The position numbers were made by a program, and so were the translations under genes. Below, piece after piece: positions 8,126-27,103 of a stretch of DNA of 64,000 bases. Every line of letters begins with the position of its first letter. Position 1 is the stretch's first letter. Origin of the DNA: Armatimonadota bacterium (GTDB lineage: Bacteria; Armatimonadota; UBA5829; DTJY01); contig JAGONM010000003.1 in NCBI GenBank assembly GCA_017993055.1, forward strand, positions 1 to 64,000. The letters are read 5' to 3'. Under the pieces are notes generated by a model, which was not told the origin of the DNA, did not search any database, and saw nothing but the letters and a program-made list of their open reading frames with translations.

Positions 8126-8992
8126 ATGTCGCTGGCCTCCAAGCTTGGGAGGAAACTCGTCGTCACAGTCGAACTCGATCCGCCCAGAGGCATCAACGTC
8201 GACAAGGCGATTGAAGGCGCGTGCCTGCTGAAAGGCGTGGACGCCATCAACCTCGCCGACAGCCCGATGGCTCGCGTGCGGATGGGTCCGGTCGCACTCG
8301 CGCATCTGATTCGGGAGCGCGTGGGGCTGGAGACCGTCCTGCACATGACCTGCAGAGACCGCAATCTGCTCAGCCTCCAGTCAGACCTTATTGGCGCCTA
8401 TGCGCTTGGCGTGGAGAATGTCCTGGCTCTGACCGGCGATCCGCCGTCGCTCGGGGATTTTCCGAACGCGACTGCCGTCTTCGATGTTACCTCGGAAGGG
8501 CTGGTGCATCTGATCAAGCGTCTGAACTGTGGCACGGACCTTGCAGGGAACAGGCTGAATCAGTCGCCCGATTTTTGCATAGGAGTCGCCGTGAGTCCGG
8601 CCGCCGACGATCTCGAAAAGGAGATAGGCCGCCTCGCCGGCAAGGTTGCCGCCGGAGCACATTTCGCCGAGACCCAACCTATCTACAGCACTGAAGTCCT
8701 CCGCAGGTTCTTGAAGAAGGTCGCCCCGGTCGGAGTGCCCGTGCTTATCGGGGTTCTGCCACTCAGGAATCCGCGCCACTGCGAGTTTCTGCACAACGAG
8801 GTCCCCGGGATTACGATCCCGGACGAAATTCGTGCTCGGATGCAGGCTGCTGGCGAGGATAATGGGCGATCGGAGGGCATCAGGATTGCTCAAGAGTTCC
8901 TGTCCGAAGTCAAACAGGATATCCAGGGCGTGTACCTGATGCCGCCCTTCGCGGATTACGACATGGCGGCCGAAGTACTCCAGATGCTCTAG
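8126..8992 (+). CDS. metF: Methylenetetrahydrofolate reductase
   Basis: A 288-residue TIM-barrel flavoprotein. 'VTVELDPPRG' at the start, 'HMTCRDRNLLSLQSDLIGAYALG', the 'LTGDPPSLGD' loop and 'GAHFAETQPIYS' are family landmarks. It reduces 5,10-methylene-THF to 5-methyl-THF. The sequence resembles the C-terminal half of fused homocysteine methyltransferase/MTHFR proteins of the YitJ type; here the two halves are separate genes six bases apart, and the metF ribosome-binding site GAGGAG lies inside the upstream stop region. The pair probably works together in methionine regeneration. Confidence 0.92.
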   Translation: MSLASKLGRKLVVTVELDPPRGINVDKAIEGACLLKGVDAINLADSPMARVRMGPVALAHLIRERVGLETVLHMTCRDRNLLSLQSDLIGAYALGVENVLALTGDPPSLGDFPNATAVFDVTSEGLVHLIKRLNCGTDLAGNRLNQSPDFCIGVAVSPAADDLEKEIGRLAGKVAAGAHFAETQPIYSTEVLRRFLKKVAPVGVPVLIGVLPLRNPRHCEFLHNEVPGITIPDEIRARMQAAGEDNGRSEGIRIAQEFLSEVKQDIQGVYLMPPFADYDMAAEVLQML

Positions 8993-21001: not shown

Positions 21002-21889
21002 CTATGCTCGGGGGTGGGATTCGCGATAGATTTCCTTCAGTTTGTCGCGGGAGACATGGGTGTATATCTGTGTCGTGGCAATATCTGCGTGTCCGAGCAT
21101 CTCTTGGATCGAGCGCAAATCCGCGCCTCCCTGAAGTAGGTGCGTCGCGAAAGAGTGTCGTAGCGTGTGCGGCGTGATATTCTTCGAAATTCCAGCCGTC
21201 GCGGCGTACTTCTTGATGATCTTCCAGAAGCCGACTCTCGACATCTTGCGCCCTCGGTTAGTCAGAAAGAGATACTCCGAACTCCCGGAGCGTGCGTACA
21301 CCGGCCTCGACCGTGCGGTGTACTGCTCGATGCAGTGGATCGCGACGTGGCCGAGTGGGACTACGCGCTCCTTCGATCCCTTGCCGAAACACCTCAGGAA
21401 TCCGACTGACGCGTTCACGTCGCTCAGCCGGAGGTTGATCAACTCCGAAACGCGCAGACCTGAGGCATATAGTGTCTCGAGCATCGCCTTGTCCCGTAGC
21501 CCGGGATGAGTGCTCGCGTCAGGCTGGCTCAGGATGGCCGCGACCTCCTCGACCGTCAGGACGCCGGGAAGCCGCTTCGAGCCTTTCATGGACTCGAACT
21601 CGGAAGTGAAGTCTCGGTCGATGAGTCCCTCCCGGCAGGCGAACCCGGCGAACGTCCTGATGGCCGATAGCTTTCGGCCGATGCTGTTCGGCGACATCGC
21701 CGCCTCCCGCAGACCGTCCAAGAAGCCCTGTACAGTCGAATCGCTGACGTTCCCGAGGGAGGAGATTCCGTGTTCCTTCGCGTATGATGAAAACTGCGCC
21801 AGATCGCGTGAATACGCTTCCACGGTATTCGGCGACAACCCGCGTTCGATCGTCAGGTGATCCGTGAATGCCTGAATCGCGCTATCCAC
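21002..21889 (-). CDS. xerD: Tyrosine recombinase XerD
   Basis: A 295-residue site-specific recombinase of the XerC/XerD type. An N-terminal core-binding SAM-like domain (residues 1-95) is followed by the catalytic domain with R146, K170, H241, R244, H267 and the nucleophile Y276 ('TTQIYTH'). With a XerC partner it resolves chromosome dimers at dif. It starts at GTG 21889 after an AGGAG site and overlaps the end of the glycosyltransferase gene by eight bases. It lies in a core operon with no mobile-element features around it, which favours a housekeeping role over an integrase. Confidence 0.9.
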   Translation of the reverse strand: MDSAIQAFTDHLTIERGLSPNTVEAYSRDLAQFSSYAKEHGISSLGNVSDSTVQGFLDGLREAAMSPNSIGRKLSAIRTFAGFACREGLIDRDFTSEFESMKGSKRLPGVLTVEEVAAILSQPDASTHPGLRDKAMLETLYASGLRVSELINLRLSDVNASVGFLRCFGKGSKERVVPLGHVAIHCIEQYTARSRPVYARSGSSEYLFLTNRGRKMSRVGFWKIIKKYAATAGISKNITPHTLRHSFATHLLQGGADLRSIQEMLGHADIATTQIYTHVSRDKLKEIYRESHPRA

Positions 21890-23588
21890 TTGACTGCCCG
21901 CTCCTGCGGTAGATAAGAATCTCCGGGCTTGCGTAGGACATGTCGTGCGGCATCTCCCACTGAAGAGGGAAGGGCATGCCGAGAATGGCGGGCCTCCGAG
22001 AGAATCGCTTCTCCAACTCGTAGTCCTGCTTCAATATCTCGAAATACCGCTTGTAGTCCATATCGCCGACACGCCTTCGGTCCTCGTATTCGAACTCGGA
22101 TAGTATGGCGTAGTCGGGCGCTGTCTCGGCGAACAATCGGGCGTTCCATTCCTCTCGGCCGTCCACGACGAACACGTATTCGGCAGAATCTTCCGCCGCG
22201 GCCAGACGATCCTCCGCGTTGACCTGCCCGAAGTTCGGCAGGAGAGGAGGAGTGTAGAACCAGGGTGTGGTCGGAAGGGCGATCGAACTCCCCTCTGGCA
22301 CGTTGGCTCTGACCCACACCGCGGCCTCATCACGAGTGTCGGTCGAGGCAAACACGGTGGATAGAGCAGCCGTATATGCAGCCGTGTATAATAAGCAGGC
22401 AGCAGTGACAGTCGAGACGATCGCGGCGGTGATCCGTCGGGTTCGCGCGCACTCGATAACTATCCTCGCGCCGAGCAGCAGCACTATCGGCAGTATCGGC
22501 ATCGTGTATCTGGCGAATCGCACCTGGGCGATCCCGATCAGCGTGTAGTACGAGGCCAGGAAGGCTATGAGCATCAAGTCGCGCACCGCAGCTTGAGGCA
22601 TGGCGATCTGAAGTCGCCAGGGTGTCAGTATGCGGGCGACGACACTGAAAGGTCGTGCCTTGGTCAGGGCCAGGACCACTCCGGGTATCCCCGGGATGAG
22701 TAGGGCGGGCCCCAGTCCGGGAAGAAGCGAGTGCATCAGATGATAGGAGAACCCAGACCCCGTGCCGGCAAACAGCAGTCCGTGGCCGCTGCCTGCGTGG
22801 AGCGCTTCGAATCTGAAGTCACGGACGAACGCTTGCGTGTTGAGAACCGAGCCCGGGCATCCGATCAGGAATCCGGCCGCTGCCGCCGCGATGCCCCCGA
22901 GCCACTTCCGATGAAACGCCAGCAGCAGGGGTCTGCCGTTGATGGAAGCCAGGTGCGCGGCTCCGAGCGCGATCACCACCAGGCCGGCGTTATACTTCGT
23001 GGCCGCCGCGAAACCGGCGTGCAACCCAGCCAAGATGTAATTCCGCCAGCGATCGTCATCCGGAATCCGAGCGGCATACAGCAGGGAGAGTGCAACGAAG
23101 AAGGTCGCAGGCACGTCTACTGTCATGAACCTCGAGTGCATGACGTGAATCGGAGCGATCGCCATGAATGCCGCCGCCAGCAGTCCGACCAACCTGCCAT
23201 GCATCCGCCGTCCGAGCGCGTACATGAGATATACAGTCAGGATTCCGAGTGTGACGGTGACGACCCGGCCGCTCATGTACACCTTGGCGAACTCCCCGAT
23301 CGAGGAGAGAGGGTCGCCGCCTATGTTGATTGCGCCGAGCAACGTGGCCGTTGTGATCGCGAGGTTCGACAGGAAGACGTATAGCGAGCCGTAGTTGTAG
23401 AAGCCCGGGTCGAGATGCCCCGAGAGAAGGTCAACGGAGATGGCTGCGTTCAACAGGATCGTCTCGTCCGGATGGTACGAGAAGAAGTGCTGTTTGGTAG
23501 GCAGTCCCCAGTCTAGGCCCCAGATGCGGAATCCGGCAGCGGCCGTCAATATCGCCAAGACGAGAATCAGGGTACTAAGCTTCTTCAA
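21882..23588 (-). CDS. Membrane glycosyltransferase (PMT/ArnT-like, GT39/GT83 type)
   Basis: A 568-residue polytopic membrane protein with about ten to twelve hydrophobic segments. The first external loop carries 'SYHPDE', the acidic pair typical of polyprenyl-phosphate sugar transferases, and 'APIHVMHSRFMTVDVP' is another family landmark. It would transfer a sugar from a lipid carrier to a protein or lipid on the outer face of the inner membrane; acceptor unknown. The start is a TTG at 23588 inside the end of the DUF5317 gene (14-base overlap). Its stop overlaps xerD. Confidence 0.8.
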   Translation of the reverse strand: MKKLSTLILVLAILTAAAGFRIWGLDWGLPTKQHFFSYHPDETILLNAAISVDLLSGHLDPGFYNYGSLYVFLSNLAITTATLLGAINIGGDPLSSIGEFAKVYMSGRVVTVTLGILTVYLMYALGRRMHGRLVGLLAAAFMAIAPIHVMHSRFMTVDVPATFFVALSLLYAARIPDDDRWRNYILAGLHAGFAAATKYNAGLVVIALGAAHLASINGRPLLLAFHRKWLGGIAAAAAGFLIGCPGSVLNTQAFVRDFRFEALHAGSGHGLLFAGTGSGFSYHLMHSLLPGLGPALLIPGIPGVVLALTKARPFSVVARILTPWRLQIAMPQAAVRDLMLIAFLASYYTLIGIAQVRFARYTMPILPIVLLLGARIVIECARTRRITAAIVSTVTAACLLYTAAYTAALSTVFASTDTRDEAAVWVRANVPEGSSIALPTTPWFYTPPLLPNFGQVNAEDRLAAAEDSAEYVFVVDGREEWNARLFAETAPDYAILSEFEYEDRRRVGDMDYKRYFEILKQDYELEKRFSRRPAILGMPFPLQWEMPHDMSYASPEILIYRRSGQSSG

Positions 23589-24144
23589 TCGGCTTCGCTT
23601 CCCCGGTGGGAGGGCACATATATCTCTGGATCAGAAGGAATATTCCTACTGCCAGAATGATGTCGCCAACGCTGAGTACCGTAGTCAGTATGGGGATCGG
23701 CACGGGTATGATGTCGGTCAACGGCCGGAGTCTCGATCCGCCGTCCATCACGACATGCCTGACTCCCTTCATGCGCTCGAGGAACTCGAGCATCCCGGCG
23801 GTCTCGGCCGCCCACCGGCTGACGGGCATGACGCCCCCGTTGGCCGTGAGGGCGACGAAGTTCAGGAACGCTCCAAGGCCGAGCAGCTTCATCTCGCGTA
23901 TGTGCCGATTCCAGACGATCGCCAAGAGCAGAACCACGTATAGCAGGATATTCATCGCCCTGACTGCGGTTCGAATGAGAGCCTCATCAGCTGTGCGATA
24001 GGTCAGCACTGTGGCCACTACGAACAGGACGAGAGGTATCGCAAACACGTATGCGCCGCGAAACGGAATCCGCGCCAGGTTGGACAGACTGCCTTTCCGC
24101 AAAACCCCCACTATGACTCCGAGTATAGCCGCCTCGGTGTTCAT
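23575..24144 (-). CDS. DUF5317 integral membrane protein
   Basis: A 189-residue membrane protein with about five transmembrane segments and the family-like central stretch 'LGAFLNFVALTANGGVMPVS', followed by 'LADI'-type loop 'LRPLTDIIPVP'. The function of DUF5317 proteins is unknown. ATG 24144 overlaps the stop of the upstream HD-GYP-like gene (ATGA), and its own end overlaps the glycosyltransferase start, so three genes are translationally linked. The longer frame to 24387 has no supporting start. The tight coupling suggests a role with the HD-GYP proteins at the membrane. Confidence 0.75.
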   Translation of the reverse strand: MNTEAAILGVIVGVLRKGSLSNLARIPFRGAYVFAIPLVLFVVATVLTYRTADEALIRTAVRAMNILLYVVLLLAIVWNRHIREMKLLGLGAFLNFVALTANGGVMPVSRWAAETAGMLEFLERMKGVRHVVMDGGSRLRPLTDIIPVPIPILTTVLSVGDIILAVGIFLLIQRYMCPPTGEAKPIEEA

Positions 24145-24830
24145 GCGGCGCGCCTCTCTGTACGAATTCGCTTCTGGAGCATGCGGAGAAACGCCTCCAC
24201 TACGGCCGGATCGAACTGAGCCCCGGCTCCGGCCTTCAACTCCGCTACGGCGGCATCCTCGTCCATCTTCGCGTGATACGGACGTTCCGAAGTCATGGAA
24301 TCGAACGCGGTGGCCACTGCCAGAATCCGCGCTCCCAGAGGAATCTGCTCGCCCATCAGGCCGTCGGGATACCCGGAGCCGTCCCACTTCTCATGGTGGT
24401 GGCGAAGATAAGGCGCGATGTCCTTGAGGAAACGCACTTGTTCTACGATCTCCTGTCCGATGGCCGGATGAGCTTCGAGTTGTTCCATCTCCTCTCGGGT
24501 CAGCTTCCCGGGCTTGTTCAAAATGGCGTGCGGCACCCTGATGTTTCCCACATCCTCCAGGAATGCCGCGTATTCGATGTTCCGTATCAGCCTCTTCGGA
24601 AGGCGCATCTGTCTGGCGGTTGCGGTTGCATATTCGGCAACCCGCTCCCCATGCCCGGCAGCGCGCATGTCTTTGGTTTCGACGGCGCTCGCCAGCGTCA
24701 GCAGGCTACGACGATACGCGCGTCCCATTCGGCGGGGCAGATATACATAGGAGTACAGCACGGCCGCCACCGTGGCAGCGAGGGAAATGACGATGGCAGG
24801 CGATTTGAGCAGTTCGAGTACGTTGTCCAC
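24141..24830 (-). CDS. HD-GYP domain protein with degenerate catalytic site
   Basis: A 229-residue protein: one N-terminal membrane helix (about residues 9-30), then an HD-GYP fold. HD-GYP enzymes hydrolyse cyclic di-GMP with a two- or three-metal centre. Here the key motif reads 'FLEDVGNI' instead of 'LLHDIGKI', and the later 'VADAFDAM' aspartate is replaced in 'VATAFDSM', so two metal positions are lost. 'HHHEKWDGSGYPDGL' is kept. It may be a non-catalytic receptor or partner. GTG start after AAGGAG, eight bases downstream of the canonical HD-GYP gene. Confidence 0.85.
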   Translation of the reverse strand: MDNVLELLKSPAIVISLAATVAAVLYSYVYLPRRMGRAYRRSLLTLASAVETKDMRAAGHGERVAEYATATARQMRLPKRLIRNIEYAAFLEDVGNIRVPHAILNKPGKLTREEMEQLEAHPAIGQEIVEQVRFLKDIAPYLRHHHEKWDGSGYPDGLMGEQIPLGARILAVATAFDSMTSERPYHAKMDEDAAVAELKAGAGAQFDPAVVEAFLRMLQKRIRTERRAA

Positions 24831-24837
24831 CGAGGTT

Positions 24838-26172
24838 CTACTCCTTTGCGTCCATCACCGTCAGGAACGCCTTCACGACCCTGGGATCAAACTGCGTTCC
24901 TGCCCCCAGCCGCACCTGATCCAGAGCCTGATCGGTGGTCAGAGGCTGACGGTATACGCGGGTCGTGCTCTCGTCGGCCCCCGTCATGGCGTCGTACGCA
25001 TCAGCAGCAGCAATCACCGCTGCCTCTATAGGGATTCGATCAGCAGTGAGTCCGTCAGGGTATCCTCGACCGTCCGGGCGTTCGTGGTGGCCTCTGACCC
25101 ACGGAACGATGCAGTCCAGATACTTCATCTGGGTGAGGATCTCCGCACCGCGGGCAGGATGCTGCTTGATCATCGCCCAGTCATCCTCGTTCAGTGAGCC
25201 GGTCTTGTCCAGAACCGTCTCATCAACCCCGACTTTGCCGATGTCGTGTAGCAGCCCGGCGTCCTTGATGTACATCAGCGACTGAGTAGGAAGTTGCATC
25301 TGGCGGGCGATCCTCTCGGCCAGGTCGGCAACTCGTTCGAGATGCCCCTTGGTATACATGTGATGATGCTGGATATACGTGCCCAGAGCGGTCACAGTCT
25401 CGCGGTAGGTGGAGACATATCTCGCATGGAGGTTGAGTGCCTGCCGGGCAACGAGGAACGGAATGATCAGGAGCAGTATGCCGACTGCCCCGTAGTTAAC
25501 ATATAGAAGGACGAAGAATGCGGCAAAACATACGCTTACAAACAAGTCCGGAAGCGACCAGCGCAGGTTGCGATGTGCCGATACACGCCAGGGCTCCTTG
25601 TGGTAGAGACTCGTTCCCGTTGCACAGACGATCGCTGTCGTCAGGCTGTAGATCGCGGCCCACAGCAGCATGAACAGGATCAGCCTCAGGCTTATTGCGG
25701 CTTGGGCAGAGCCGATACGGAGAAATGGACCGCCGACGATCATATACACGAGCGACGCGATGGTTGCGGCCGCAATGTGGTTGGCGACATTGTAGATAAC
25801 GAGAGAGGTCAGCCATCCGAACGCCGGGCCCCACTGCGTGATGTACGAGGCTATCAGAATCGGCACGGCGCTTACGGCAATTGTGGCCGCCAGACCGTGG
25901 CTGAGAAACATTCCGAGCACGACCGGAACGGTTACAGTTACCCATATGCTGGAATCCGGGATCTTGGTGGGGAACAACTCGGTTACGAAAATAACCGCGA
26001 GGAAGAACAACCATTCCCACGAGAACACTCGCCCCTGGAGAAGTGAGAAACAGGCCGCTATGAAGATCGCGACCCCGATCGTGGAGACTGCCCGTGAGTA
26101 AAGACTAAAAGCCTTGGATGATCTACGCAATGGAGAATGCTCTTCGGCAATCATAGGCCGGGTCGGTGGCAC
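24838..26172 (-). CDS. Membrane HD-GYP phosphodiesterase
   Basis: A 444-residue protein. The first 220 residues form a membrane domain of about six hydrophobic segments without an obvious periplasmic sensor fold. The C-terminal HD-GYP domain is intact: 'HLERVADLAERIA', 'LLHDIGKVGVDETVLDK', 'HPARGAEIL', 'GHHERPDGRGYPDGL' and 'AAADAYDAMTG'. It probably degrades cyclic di-GMP in response to a membrane or external signal. The start is GTG 26172 or ATG 26154; neither has a clear ribosome-binding site, and a hairpin (26174-26195) sits right before the GTG. A short signal-peptide-like ORF lies just upstream. Confidence 0.85.
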   Translation of the reverse strand: MPPTRPMIAEEHSPLRRSSKAFSLYSRAVSTIGVAIFIAACFSLLQGRVFSWEWLFFLAVIFVTELFPTKIPDSSIWVTVTVPVVLGMFLSHGLAATIAVSAVPILIASYITQWGPAFGWLTSLVIYNVANHIAAATIASLVYMIVGGPFLRIGSAQAAISLRLILFMLLWAAIYSLTTAIVCATGTSLYHKEPWRVSAHRNLRWSLPDLFVSVCFAAFFVLLYVNYGAVGILLLIIPFLVARQALNLHARYVSTYRETVTALGTYIQHHHMYTKGHLERVADLAERIARQMQLPTQSLMYIKDAGLLHDIGKVGVDETVLDKTGSLNEDDWAMIKQHPARGAEILTQMKYLDCIVPWVRGHHERPDGRGYPDGLTADRIPIEAAVIAAADAYDAMTGADESTTRVYRQPLTTDQALDQVRLGAGTQFDPRVVKAFLTVMDAKE

Positions 26173-26173
26173 A

Positions 26174-26195
26174 CCTGACGGTGAAAACCGTCAGG
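26174..26195 (-). promoter_or_regulatory. Hairpin at the HD-GYP start codon
   Basis: A perfect 8-bp stem (CCTGACGG with CCGTCAGG) and a 6-base loop, ending one base before the possible GTG start of the HD-GYP gene on the minus strand. It is not followed by a T run, so control of translation or an RNA processing site is more likely than termination. Confidence 0.5.
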
Positions 26196-26197
26196 CT

Positions 26198-26233
26198 CCC
26201 GCCCCGGTCGCGCTAGCCGCCTATGGGGGCGGG
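26198..26233 (-). promoter_or_regulatory. Hairpin covering the stop codon of the short peptide gene
   Basis: CCCGCCCC (26198-26205) pairs with GGGGCGGG (26226-26233). The stem includes the proline codons that end the 28-residue peptide and encloses its stop codon, so ribosomes finishing the peptide would open this helix just ahead of the HD-GYP gene. Confidence 0.45.
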
Positions 26234-26307
26234 AAGAACTTCGGGAATGCGCCTGAACTGAGTATTAACGCAGTCAGGGCAAGCAGCACTTTGACTAAGG
26301 TCTTCAT
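26221..26307 (-). CDS. Short signal-peptide-like protein (28 residues)
   Basis: A 28-residue reading frame starting at ATG 26307 after an AAAGGGG site about 12 bases upstream. It has lysines at positions 2 and 6, a hydrophobic core at 7-16 (Leu/Ala/Val/Ile), a small-residue Ser-Ser-Gly-Ala stretch at 17-20 that looks like a signal peptidase site, and the tail FPKFFPPP. Cleavage after residue 20 would release that octapeptide. It lies between the orphan 26453 gene and the membrane HD-GYP gene on the same strand. I know no family for it. It could be an exported signalling peptide, a leader peptide, or chance. Confidence 0.45.
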   Translation of the reverse strand: MKTLVKVLLALTALILSSGAFPKFFPPP

Positions 26308-26314
26308 GGTAACT

Positions 26315-26451
26315 TCAACCCCTTTCGTTGTGGTGAGAGTAATGCTCGTCATCGCTAGAGACAAGCACTTTCACCGCTCCGCTCGGGTTGGTTGTCTGAC
26401 GGGTTGCGTTCTGCGACCCTAAGCTGCCACCGGTTCCCGGCCTAAATTGTA
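26315..26451 (-). other. Structured leader upstream of the short peptide gene
   Basis: On the minus strand a TACAAT -10 (26446-26451) without a good -35 is followed by about 130 bases with several short helices: GCCGG-GAA-CCGG, GGGTCGC-AGAAC-GCAACCC with one mismatch, and AGACAA pairing with TTGTCT. A GTG-started 19-codon frame (26315-26374) ends eight bases before the peptide ATG but has a poorly spaced ribosome-binding site. I could not match the pattern to cyclic di-GMP class I or other riboswitch consensus sequences known to me. Confidence 0.35.
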
Positions 26452-26452
26452 A

Positions 26453-27103
26453 TCATTCCTCCGCTGCCACACCGAGCCTTCGGTTGACAGCGTCCAGCGT
26501 AGCATTCACCACCGCTTTCCACAAATCCTGCTTGACAATGGCTGAGCCTGTTAGGTACTCCTCACCCCGGGGGGTGATCATGTTTACAAGCGCCAGCACT
26601 ATGTTCTTACCCAAAAGCGTGACTGACCAATCAAGGTCTTCCACAACAAGCGTTCCCTCTGTGCCGCGGCACTGCTCAAGTGCCTCGAGAGTCGCTGTCG
26701 CCACCAGGCGGTATTGACTCTGACTCGAGCTGTGGCCGACGGCGTTTCCGGTGTAGACGTCCCCGTTTCGGCTGAGTCTGACGGTTGCCTCGGCTCGGGT
26801 GCCGTTGAGGGATATTGCCACATCGGAGAACTTGAGGCGCGATTCGTTGAATCGGAACTGCCTGCCGCTCTGAGTCTGGGCGACGCTGACGACCTTGTGG
26901 TCCAGTTCCAAGCCGTACTGGGCCATCAGCGCCGACTCGACGTCGCGTACGATCTGTTTCGGCGCTCTGTCTCCGTCGGCCAGTACGTGCAGTTCCTCTA
27001 CCGAGCCGTCGCTAGCCGGCACCGCGCGAACCGATATGATGCCCTTGAGAGAGCCGATGATCGCTTCGATGTCCGCTGCAGATACTCGTACGGGTGCATC
27101 CAT
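26453..27103 (-). CDS. Hypothetical protein upstream of the HD-GYP cluster
   Basis: A 216-residue soluble protein. Residues 1-75 ('ADIEAIIGSLKGIISVRAV', 'EELHVLADGDRAPKQIVRDVESALMAQYG') look like a small alpha/beta fold, and the C-terminal half ('YRLVATATLEALEQC', 'SAIVKQDLWKAVVNATLDAVNRRL') forms a second alpha/beta segment. I do not recognise a named family. No signal peptide or membrane segment. The ATG follows a strong GGAGGGG site. It sits 23 bases after pheT and before the peptide gene, so it may be the end of the translation operon or the first gene of the HD-GYP cluster. Confidence 0.65.
   Translation of the reverse strand: MDAPVRVSAADIEAIIGSLKGIISVRAVPASDGSVEELHVLADGDRAPKQIVRDVESALMAQYGLELDHKVVSVAQTQSGRQFRFNESRLKFSDVAISLNGTRAEATVRLSRNGDVYTGNAVGHSSSQSQYRLVATATLEALEQCRGTEGTLVVEDLDWSVTLLGKNIVLALVNMITPRGEEYLTGSAIVKQDLWKAVVNATLDAVNRRLGVAAEE

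Follow-up and report, generated by a model that had tools for sequence, protein, structure and literature searches.

The DNA analysed here, referred to as the window, is a stretch of 64,000 nucleotides of contig JAGONM010000003.1 from an Armatimonadota bacterium. On its minus strand lies a block of five open reading frames (ORFs), comprising an orphan gene, a 28-codon ORF, a gene for a membrane HD-GYP protein (HD-GYP 1), a gene for a second HD-GYP protein and a DUF5317 gene, all of which had been named in an initial annotation of this DNA and were confirmed. Across the class, the order pheT - orphan - short ORF - HD-GYP 1 - HD-GYP 2 - DUF5317 - PMT-type glycosyltransferase is conserved, and a further family of the same phylum keeps most of the block from pheT to the glycosyltransferase. 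The 28-codon ORF was found to belong to a micropeptide family and to be enclosed by a structured RNA, and the existence of this RNA/peptide element is near certain. The coordinates of the genes and RNA features are given in Table 1.

Table 1 Genes and RNA features at the locus in the window. dN/dS, ratio of nonsynonymous to synonymous substitution rates; pLDDT, predicted local distance difference test score; R1 and R2, covariance models.
Feature	Coordinates	Strand	Basis
Orphan gene, 216 aa	26453..27103	-	no Pfam match; AlphaFold2 pLDDT 88; Foldseek LeuA match
Micropeptide ORF, 28 codons, MKTLVKVLLALTALILSSGAFPKFFPPP	26221..26307	-	profile 41.6 bits; family dN/dS 0.17; sole genome match, E 1.4e-10
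Membrane HD-GYP protein 1, intact catalytic motifs	24838..26172	-	PF13487 E 5e-30; motifs compared with solved HD-GYP enzymes; hydropathy
Second, degenerate HD-GYP protein	24141..24830	-	PF13487 E 1.6e-42; HD to ED, GK to GN
DUF5317 membrane protein, 189 aa	23575..24144	-	Pfam PF17248 E 6.7e-33
PMT_2/PMT-family glycosyltransferase	21882..23588	-	PF13231 E 1e-17; conserved gene next downstream in class (synteny)
Structured RNA element enclosing peptide ORF, P1 5' to 3' strand	26154..26444	-	P1 pairing, covariance models; no Rfam match
P1 closing stem, 5' strand TAGGCCGGG	26436..26444	-	perfect complement of 26154-26162; equivalent stem covaries across families
P1 closing stem, 3' strand CCCGGCCTA	26154..26162	-	last A is first base of candidate HD-GYP 1 ATG
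P2a/P2b/P3 hairpin domain, GAGCGGAG internal loop, AGCGAT apical loop	26305..26391	-	R1 E 8.4e-5; R2 47.2 bits
Shine-Dalgarno sequence GAAAGGGG of peptide ORF	26319..26326	-	G run predicted paired in P2a

Conservation of the micropeptide family

In nearly every related genome, a similar ORF with a good ribosome-binding site is located on the same strand between the orphan and HD-GYP 1. In the window, AAAGGGG stands 11 nucleotides ahead of the ATG of the 28-codon ORF, and sites of the AAAGGGG or AAGGAGG type precede the start codon across the family, whose members have 24-46 residues and are sited between the orphan and the membrane HD-GYP gene (or DUF5317). The family extends over Armatimonadota, Bacillota and one Chloroflexota genome (L164, Aquidulcis; L numbers denote related loci, G numbers genomes, and f8, f22 and f32 families among the relatives). 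Examples are MKTLVKVLLALASLVLTSGAFGRFWPPP from the window's family, MKYWLTMLLLLVVWATTYGAKLEIYPPPKPPPPPSATY from f8, MGKWTSVLLALLSMVLAGGARLAWP from f22, MSKLFKAITVLVTLVLAGGATWRI from Desulfosporosinus, MARLVRAILALLALVLASGAFLQWG from Symbiobacterium and MKNTFAKLLPVAFALLALAIAAGAELTYIF from Niameybacter. The peptide has no match in Pfam or NCBIfam.

With a profile of the family searched against 51,137 candidate frames, true members score 23-54 bits and every match of at least 23 bits lies at this one position; diverged copies at this site account for the next scores, of 15-16 bits, and the noise does not exceed 10.3 bits. When the profile was built from Armatimonadota members only, 27 of the 30 peptides held out from other phyla scored above every negative, and 60 of 98 Armatimonadota peptides were recovered in the reverse test with the profile from other phyla. 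When 291 Armatimonadota genomes were searched, the top peptide match fell at this locus in nearly all genomes bearing the block, and a blind whole-genome match in G223, a genome previously missed, was confirmed on inspection to lie between an orphan remnant and an HD-GYP pair, with the GAGCGAAGCGG motif upstream. Moreover, six clades show purifying selection on the codons (dN/dS of 0.17, 0.04, 0.18, 0.15, 0.11 and 0.23), which covers the whole peptide, including the hydrophobic core. The initial annotation had named the lack of a short ORF upstream of orthologous HD-GYP genes, or broken frames in close relatives, as grounds against its reading; the relatives instead show the ORF in three phyla and a constrained frame, with dN/dS of 0.04-0.23. 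A chance ORF in an intergenic spacer, for which only the small size speaks, is refuted by the three-phylum conservation, the profile separation, the dN/dS values and the blind match in G223, and can be practically dismissed. The 28-codon ORF is, on this sequence evidence, a real conserved gene far beyond chance, and its conservation in Armatimonadota, Bacillota and Chloroflexota implies an old and important role.

Two unusual copies were observed. The peptide of L166 (6773-7000) has 14 residues (MLEFLIGLFWKWEW), lies within the same RNA architecture and is perhaps the minimal functional form. The L206 (G016) copy, MSRLYNCMLVLAPLPSNADATWGIWPPR, keeps both ends and has an altered core, as if through two compensating frameshifts, which would reflect decay or sequencing error.

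The window peptide begins with basic residues followed by a 13-residue stretch with a mean hydropathy of 2.7, and G19 and A20 are nearly invariant in the family, so that the signal-like core and cleavage-like site reported in the initial annotation are a fair description. The FPKFFPPP tail is restricted to the window's lineage, and the tails of Bacillota members have 4-6 residues (SYRI, TFKW). The terminal proline run is not general, being confined to part of the Armatimonadota and missing from the Bacillota members and the f22 group. In Desulfosporosinus, the core is fixed and the tail differs among species yet keeps an aromatic pattern. The first 20 residues might be an export signal, cleavage after G-A freeing a peptide of 4-24 residues (FPKFFPPP here) through which the membrane HD-GYP would sense cell density or external conditions. 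The basic start and the hydrophobic core suit signal peptidase I, as do positions 18 and 20, both occupied by small residues in 26 of the 28 members aligned, and the variable, aromatic-patterned tail behind the fixed Desulfosporosinus core also speaks for a released product. However, position -3 is occupied by Tyr or Gln in two lineages and by Ile or Leu in two others, and the conserved G19 sits at -2, not at -3. A 20-residue signal leaving four residues would, from general knowledge, be unusual in Bacillota, the block contains no processing or transport gene, and the 14-residue version at L166 also argues against it. Export followed by cleavage is possible but rather unlikely. A cyclic peptide of the AgrD type was rejected, because there is no NCBIfam or Pfam match and the neighbours are HD_5, DUF5317 and PMT genes.

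Linkage to the orphan, the HD-GYP pair and DUF5317

To count linkage, the profile alone was applied to loci with at least 2 kb of sequence downstream of the orphan. Outside Armatimonadota, 26 of the 30 loci with HD-GYP/DUF5317 gave a peptide match, against none of the 32 loci without. In Armatimonadota, it was detected at 43 of 46 loci with HD-GYP/DUF5317, and two of the four loci without a detected partner also hold it, namely L198, where the HD-GYP gene is interrupted by Ns, and L201, where DUF5317 directly follows the peptide. The peptide was absent from all 34 orphan-only loci and from all five loci having HD-GYP without the orphan (L045, L052, L057, L262 and L268). In four Bacillota genomes whose first orphan copy has no partner, a second copy beside HD-GYP and DUF5317 is accompanied by the peptide at 27-31 bits, these second loci lying outside the profile training set. 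These counts agree with the specific tie between the mini-peptide and the HD-GYP/DUF5317 group that had been suggested for the window, and the occurrence of the peptide only where the orphan adjoins HD-GYP/DUF5317 indicates that the unit requires both the orphan and a membrane partner.

The seven exceptions to the profile counts, together with L119, were inspected individually by eye. An assembly gap interrupts the peptide after an intact start in L104 and L119, the peptide is present below the profile cut-off in L164 and L191, L166 has the 14-residue form, and L204 (MMTNMINAITTAVNGCGRFAFFPPGD) and L205 carry a diverged conserved form. Only L136 is truly without the peptide, and its HD-GYP starts without a membrane domain. 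Lone DUF5317 genes have no peptide, save for one peptide-like candidate ORF in L265 (7141-7413; MRLIYILLALLALALAGGAPDGMGGSD; 18 bits), which lies directly ahead of a lone DUF5317 gene with no RNA features and no orphan nearby.

The membrane HD-GYP of the window has 6-8 hydrophobic segments followed by an intact HD-GYP domain in which the HD, HHE and GYP motifs are all present (LLHDIGK, HHERPDGRGYP). The membrane segments and the domain thus stand as described in the initial annotation, while the proposed count of six helices becomes 6-8, and the GTG start at 26172 is doubtful, ATG 26154 or TTG 26130 being likelier because homology begins at residue 9-14. Where HDxGK would be expected, the second HD-GYP, with one N-terminal hydrophobic segment, reads FLEDVGN, so that Glu stands at the position of the metal-binding His. 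Its orthologues have also lost this His (to A, R or Q) in most other families, and f22 keeps it. The loss of a metal ligand claimed for this protein is confirmed, but it is shared by most families and so marks a conserved pseudo-domain and no recent loss, and the protein is probably a conserved pseudo-enzyme paired with an HD-GYP having active-site motifs. The closest solved relatives of both domains are the tandem HD-GYP protein V-cGAP3 (PDB 5z7c) and PmGH (4mcw); compared with these, the two domains of the window reside on separate membrane proteins, and the second is without the HD histidine.

The DUF5317 gene overlaps the second HD-GYP gene by 4 nucleotides. A PMT-type glycosyltransferase follows DUF5317 in most members of the class, and the two remain neighbours in several genomes in which DUF5317 no longer lies beside the HD-GYP genes. 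With this neighbour, an output in glycan or cell-surface synthesis is possible.

A structured RNA closed around the ORF

In the window's class, the sequence past the orphan stop is complementary to the sequence past the peptide stop, and the resulting stem, P1, would close around the ORF. A systematic scan found P1 in nearly all genomes, mostly with 8-31 bp and with very different sequences, such as TTGGCCGACT/AGTCGGCCAA in Desulfosporosinus, AAAAGGGCCGACAAATA/TATTTGTCGGCCCTTTT in Formimonas and CAAGGCAAGC/GCTTGCCTTG in f32. When strands were swapped between families, the mean score was 33.9 with a strand's own partner and 20.0 with a swapped one, and the own partner ranked first in 19 of 27 groups. 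At L056 (around 8340-8720), P1 is a 31-bp duplex, far longer than that of its relatives, and short tandem GGTTAGA repeats follow its 3' strand.

Between the P1 5' strand and the ORF, the domain order is P2a, an internal loop GAGCGRAG, P2b, and P3 with an AGCGRA apical loop; in the window, this hairpin domain overlaps the start codon of the ORF. Folding predicts that P2a pairs the G run of the Shine-Dalgarno sequence, the 5-mer of which is predicted to be paired in 43 of 51 cases. AGCGR occurs upstream of the ORF at 3.9 per 120 nucleotides against 0.4 expected, a 9-fold enrichment. In Desulfosporosinus (L106-L130), up to four copies of AGCGRA were observed upstream of the ORF, and the hairpin pairing the Shine-Dalgarno sequence is rebuilt from other sequence.

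Covariance model R1, built from seven genomes of one family with the window excluded, finds the window at E 8.4e-5 as well as loci in Bacillota (L102, for example, at E 9e-6), and all of its matches up to E 1 in 643 kb are at the expected place. The second model, R2, gives 47 matches, about 45 of them at the locus. In whole-genome covariance searches, the RNA occurs essentially once per genome, at this locus, and is absent where the orphan is absent. Among R2 matches, 88.2% of cells in the hairpin domain pair, and changes on both sides are seen in 20 of the 21 pairs; its covariation score is 0.596 against 0.18 for shuffled and at most 0.12 for slid alignments, a figure that leans towards structure as the alignment was fitted to the model. 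No structure emerged from RNAalifold when diverse members were aligned with MAFFT, the stems being misaligned, and seeding from one family was used instead. Both the large covariation effect and the independent swap test of P1 support that the fold is real and, as far as the sequences tell, it is conserved through compensatory changes.

The RNA matches no known family. Even with a cut-off of E 5, Rfam 15 gave no match over this part of the window, save for a sub-threshold sR7 match inside the orphan gene, and none at 12 related loci save for an unrelated cspA element. A cyclic di-GMP (c-di-GMP) riboswitch was rejected for want of an Rfam match, and hexaloops of the ANTAR type were dropped as an account of the AGCGRA loops because the closing pairs are inconsistent. 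P1 closes 0-94 nucleotides (median 31) past the ORF stop, between the ORF and HD-GYP. A T run follows P1 in 7 of 68 stems, suggesting that P1 is rarely an intrinsic terminator, no promoter enrichment was found ahead of P1, and no minus-strand terminator was found in the window region. An intrinsic terminator or attenuator, or a separate promoter, at P1 was rejected on these grounds.

The position of P1 bears on whether translation of the ORF, and not its product, controls HD-GYP. Ribosomes finishing the ORF would then block P1 closure, and could be kept in place by a stall at the proline-rich end (FFPPP, WPPP). The closing of P1 shortly after the ORF stop and ahead of HD-GYP and the predicted pairing of the Shine-Dalgarno sequence fit such a switch, and tails such as IWPPP resemble the WPPP arrest sequences of Escherichia coli (PMC11669330). 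Against it stand the selection on the entire peptide, including the hydrophobic core, the lack of a proline run in the Bacillota members and the f22 group, and the scarcity of T runs after P1. Arrest at PPP was rejected as a general mechanism since the proline run is not conserved. With conservation over the whole peptide, no stall motif shared by the family and few terminators, a pure leader peptide is disfavoured, but the location of P1 between the ORF and HD-GYP keeps it alive; on balance, we regard control by translation alone as rather unlikely.

Alternatively, the RNA might be excised, for example by RNase III at a long P1 duplex, to act as a separate small RNA or mini-mRNA, or as a protein sponge offering AGCGRA sites to the orphan, with HD-GYP merely co-transcribed. 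The perfect P1 duplex of up to 31 bp enclosing the ORF and hairpins, the AGCGR enrichment and the loss of the RNA wherever the orphan is missing are consistent with this. However, the RNA is absent at the 34 orphan loci without HD-GYP/DUF5317, so the enzyme side matters, and excision appears quite improbable.

Possible mechanism and known systems

The orphan is a candidate regulator of the unit. Among 291 Armatimonadota, 62 have a homologue of it, and homologues also occur outside the phylum. An AlphaFold2 model from an 84-sequence alignment (pLDDT 88) predicts an N-terminal alpha-beta-beta-alpha-beta domain followed by two beta-beta-beta-alpha units. The top Foldseek match is the regulatory domain of LeuA (isopropylmalate synthase; E 4e-6, probability 1.00, TM-score only 0.38 over the query), which shares the predicted fold of the C-terminal half; the match is partial, and the orphan differs from LeuA in having no catalytic domain and another N-terminal domain. 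Weaker matches are double-stranded RNA-binding domains of Dicer-type proteins, MLE and TRBP. The model thus points to a possible small-molecule sensor or RNA binder, and RNA recognition is worth considering because such a fold is paired with an always-adjacent RNA. Several genomes (L077-L084) have another gene, of about 430-510 codons, that also contains the C-terminal half of the orphan, at 32-35% identity.

We favour, with a probability of roughly 0.45, a joint reading in which the RNA gates synthesis of the micropeptide and the peptide acts at the membrane with HD-GYP and/or DUF5317. The conserved control unit would consist of the orphan, the structured RNA carrying the micropeptide ORF, the membrane HD-GYP with its pseudo-HD-GYP, and DUF5317. 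The RNA, as predicted by folding, would sequester the ORF's own Shine-Dalgarno sequence, and a factor reading the repeated AGCGRA loops, possibly the orphan protein, would set peptide production. The short hydrophobic peptide would insert in the membrane with its N-terminus inside and its aromatic/proline tail at or past the outer face, and would serve as a small partner of the HD-GYP membrane domain and/or DUF5317, adjusting cyclic-dinucleotide breakdown, with the pseudo-HD-GYP as a non-catalytic partner or regulatory subunit. A role of the product itself is favoured by selection over the whole peptide, by its aromatic tail and conserved hydrophobic core, and by a Gly-Ala pair that hardly varies.

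Several observations weigh against this joint reading. The two lysines of the window peptide are separated by 16 residues, which is short for a membrane span. With 9 bp, the P1 of the window is among the shorter ones and is not the best-ranked pairing in the swap test. L201 keeps the orphan, RNA, peptide and DUF5317 without an adjacent HD-GYP, and f8 and f32 genomes have HD-GYP with no DUF5317 match, so that neither partner is strictly required. The putative link between peptide and HD-GYP is drawn from gene order and co-occurrence. That the orphan recognises AGCGRA is a guess, and LeuA-type matches outscore the RNA-binding folds. A fuller chain, which would make a new class of signalling unit, is less likely. 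In it, the orphan reads the micropeptide-coding RNA, which a helix closes from end to end and which offers the AGCGRA repeats as protein-binding sites, and so sets synthesis of a tiny membrane peptide that would directly switch a membrane c-di-GMP phosphodiesterase. Second-messenger turnover in several phyla would thereby respond to an intracellular ligand of the orphan, possibly leucine-like.

The overall interpretation of the initial annotation is partly supported, and its wording, "an exported peptide, or its translation", accommodates both surviving models; the structured RNA enclosing the ORF, the dependence on the orphan and the multi-phylum distribution go beyond it. The orphan and DUF5317, genes of no known function, are now joined by a peptide family and an RNA fold that have no counterpart in Pfam, NCBIfam or Rfam, and the unit offers a first concrete handle on the possible control of a whole class of membrane HD-GYP enzymes. 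Annotation usually passes over genes of 24 residues. Action of the peptide on the enzyme would represent a direct peptide input to cyclic-dinucleotide breakdown; if translation alone matters, the unit would be a leader-peptide switch using a helix closed around the ORF. The unit is carried by the culturable genera Desulfosporosinus, Carboxydothermus and Niameybacter, which makes it testable at the bench.

To our knowledge, a closing helix around an ORF combined with AGCGRA repeats matches no RNA family, and we found no paper on the peptide, the RNA or the module. Intergenic RNA motifs bearing upstream or small ORFs have been reported from genome-wide searches (Stav 2019, PMC6429828; Narunsky 2024, PMC11109978), the main texts of which do not mention HD-GYP. 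Like the GEMM-I/II c-di-GMP riboswitches, the RNA lies upstream of a c-di-GMP-related gene, but it has no Rfam match and differs in fold and motifs. With SecM, CliM and WPPP, the unit shares a short ORF upstream of a membrane-related gene, a structured mRNA and, in Armatimonadota, a proline-rich end, whereas it has no proline run in Bacillota, is under selection over its whole length and encodes a precursor too short to exit the ribosome tunnel.

The SHP/Rgg and Phr-type pheromones of Bacillota derive from precursors of about 20-45 residues with a basic start, a hydrophobic core and a short active tail, encoded beside the receptor gene. The window peptide resembles them in size, basic start, hydrophobic core and short tail, but no Rgg/RNPP receptor is present, its ORF is enclosed by a structured RNA next to a membrane HD-GYP gene, and the core is kept across phyla. 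MgrB and SafA are small membrane proteins acting on histidine kinases; the micropeptide is likewise a tiny hydrophobic protein that could tune a membrane sensor, whereas its proposed target is a c-di-GMP phosphodiesterase and it has no sequence relation to them in Pfam or NCBIfam. An RNA-gated small peptide beside a membrane sensor is of a known kind, and the chain from orphan through RNA and peptide to enzyme, if true, would be categorically new.

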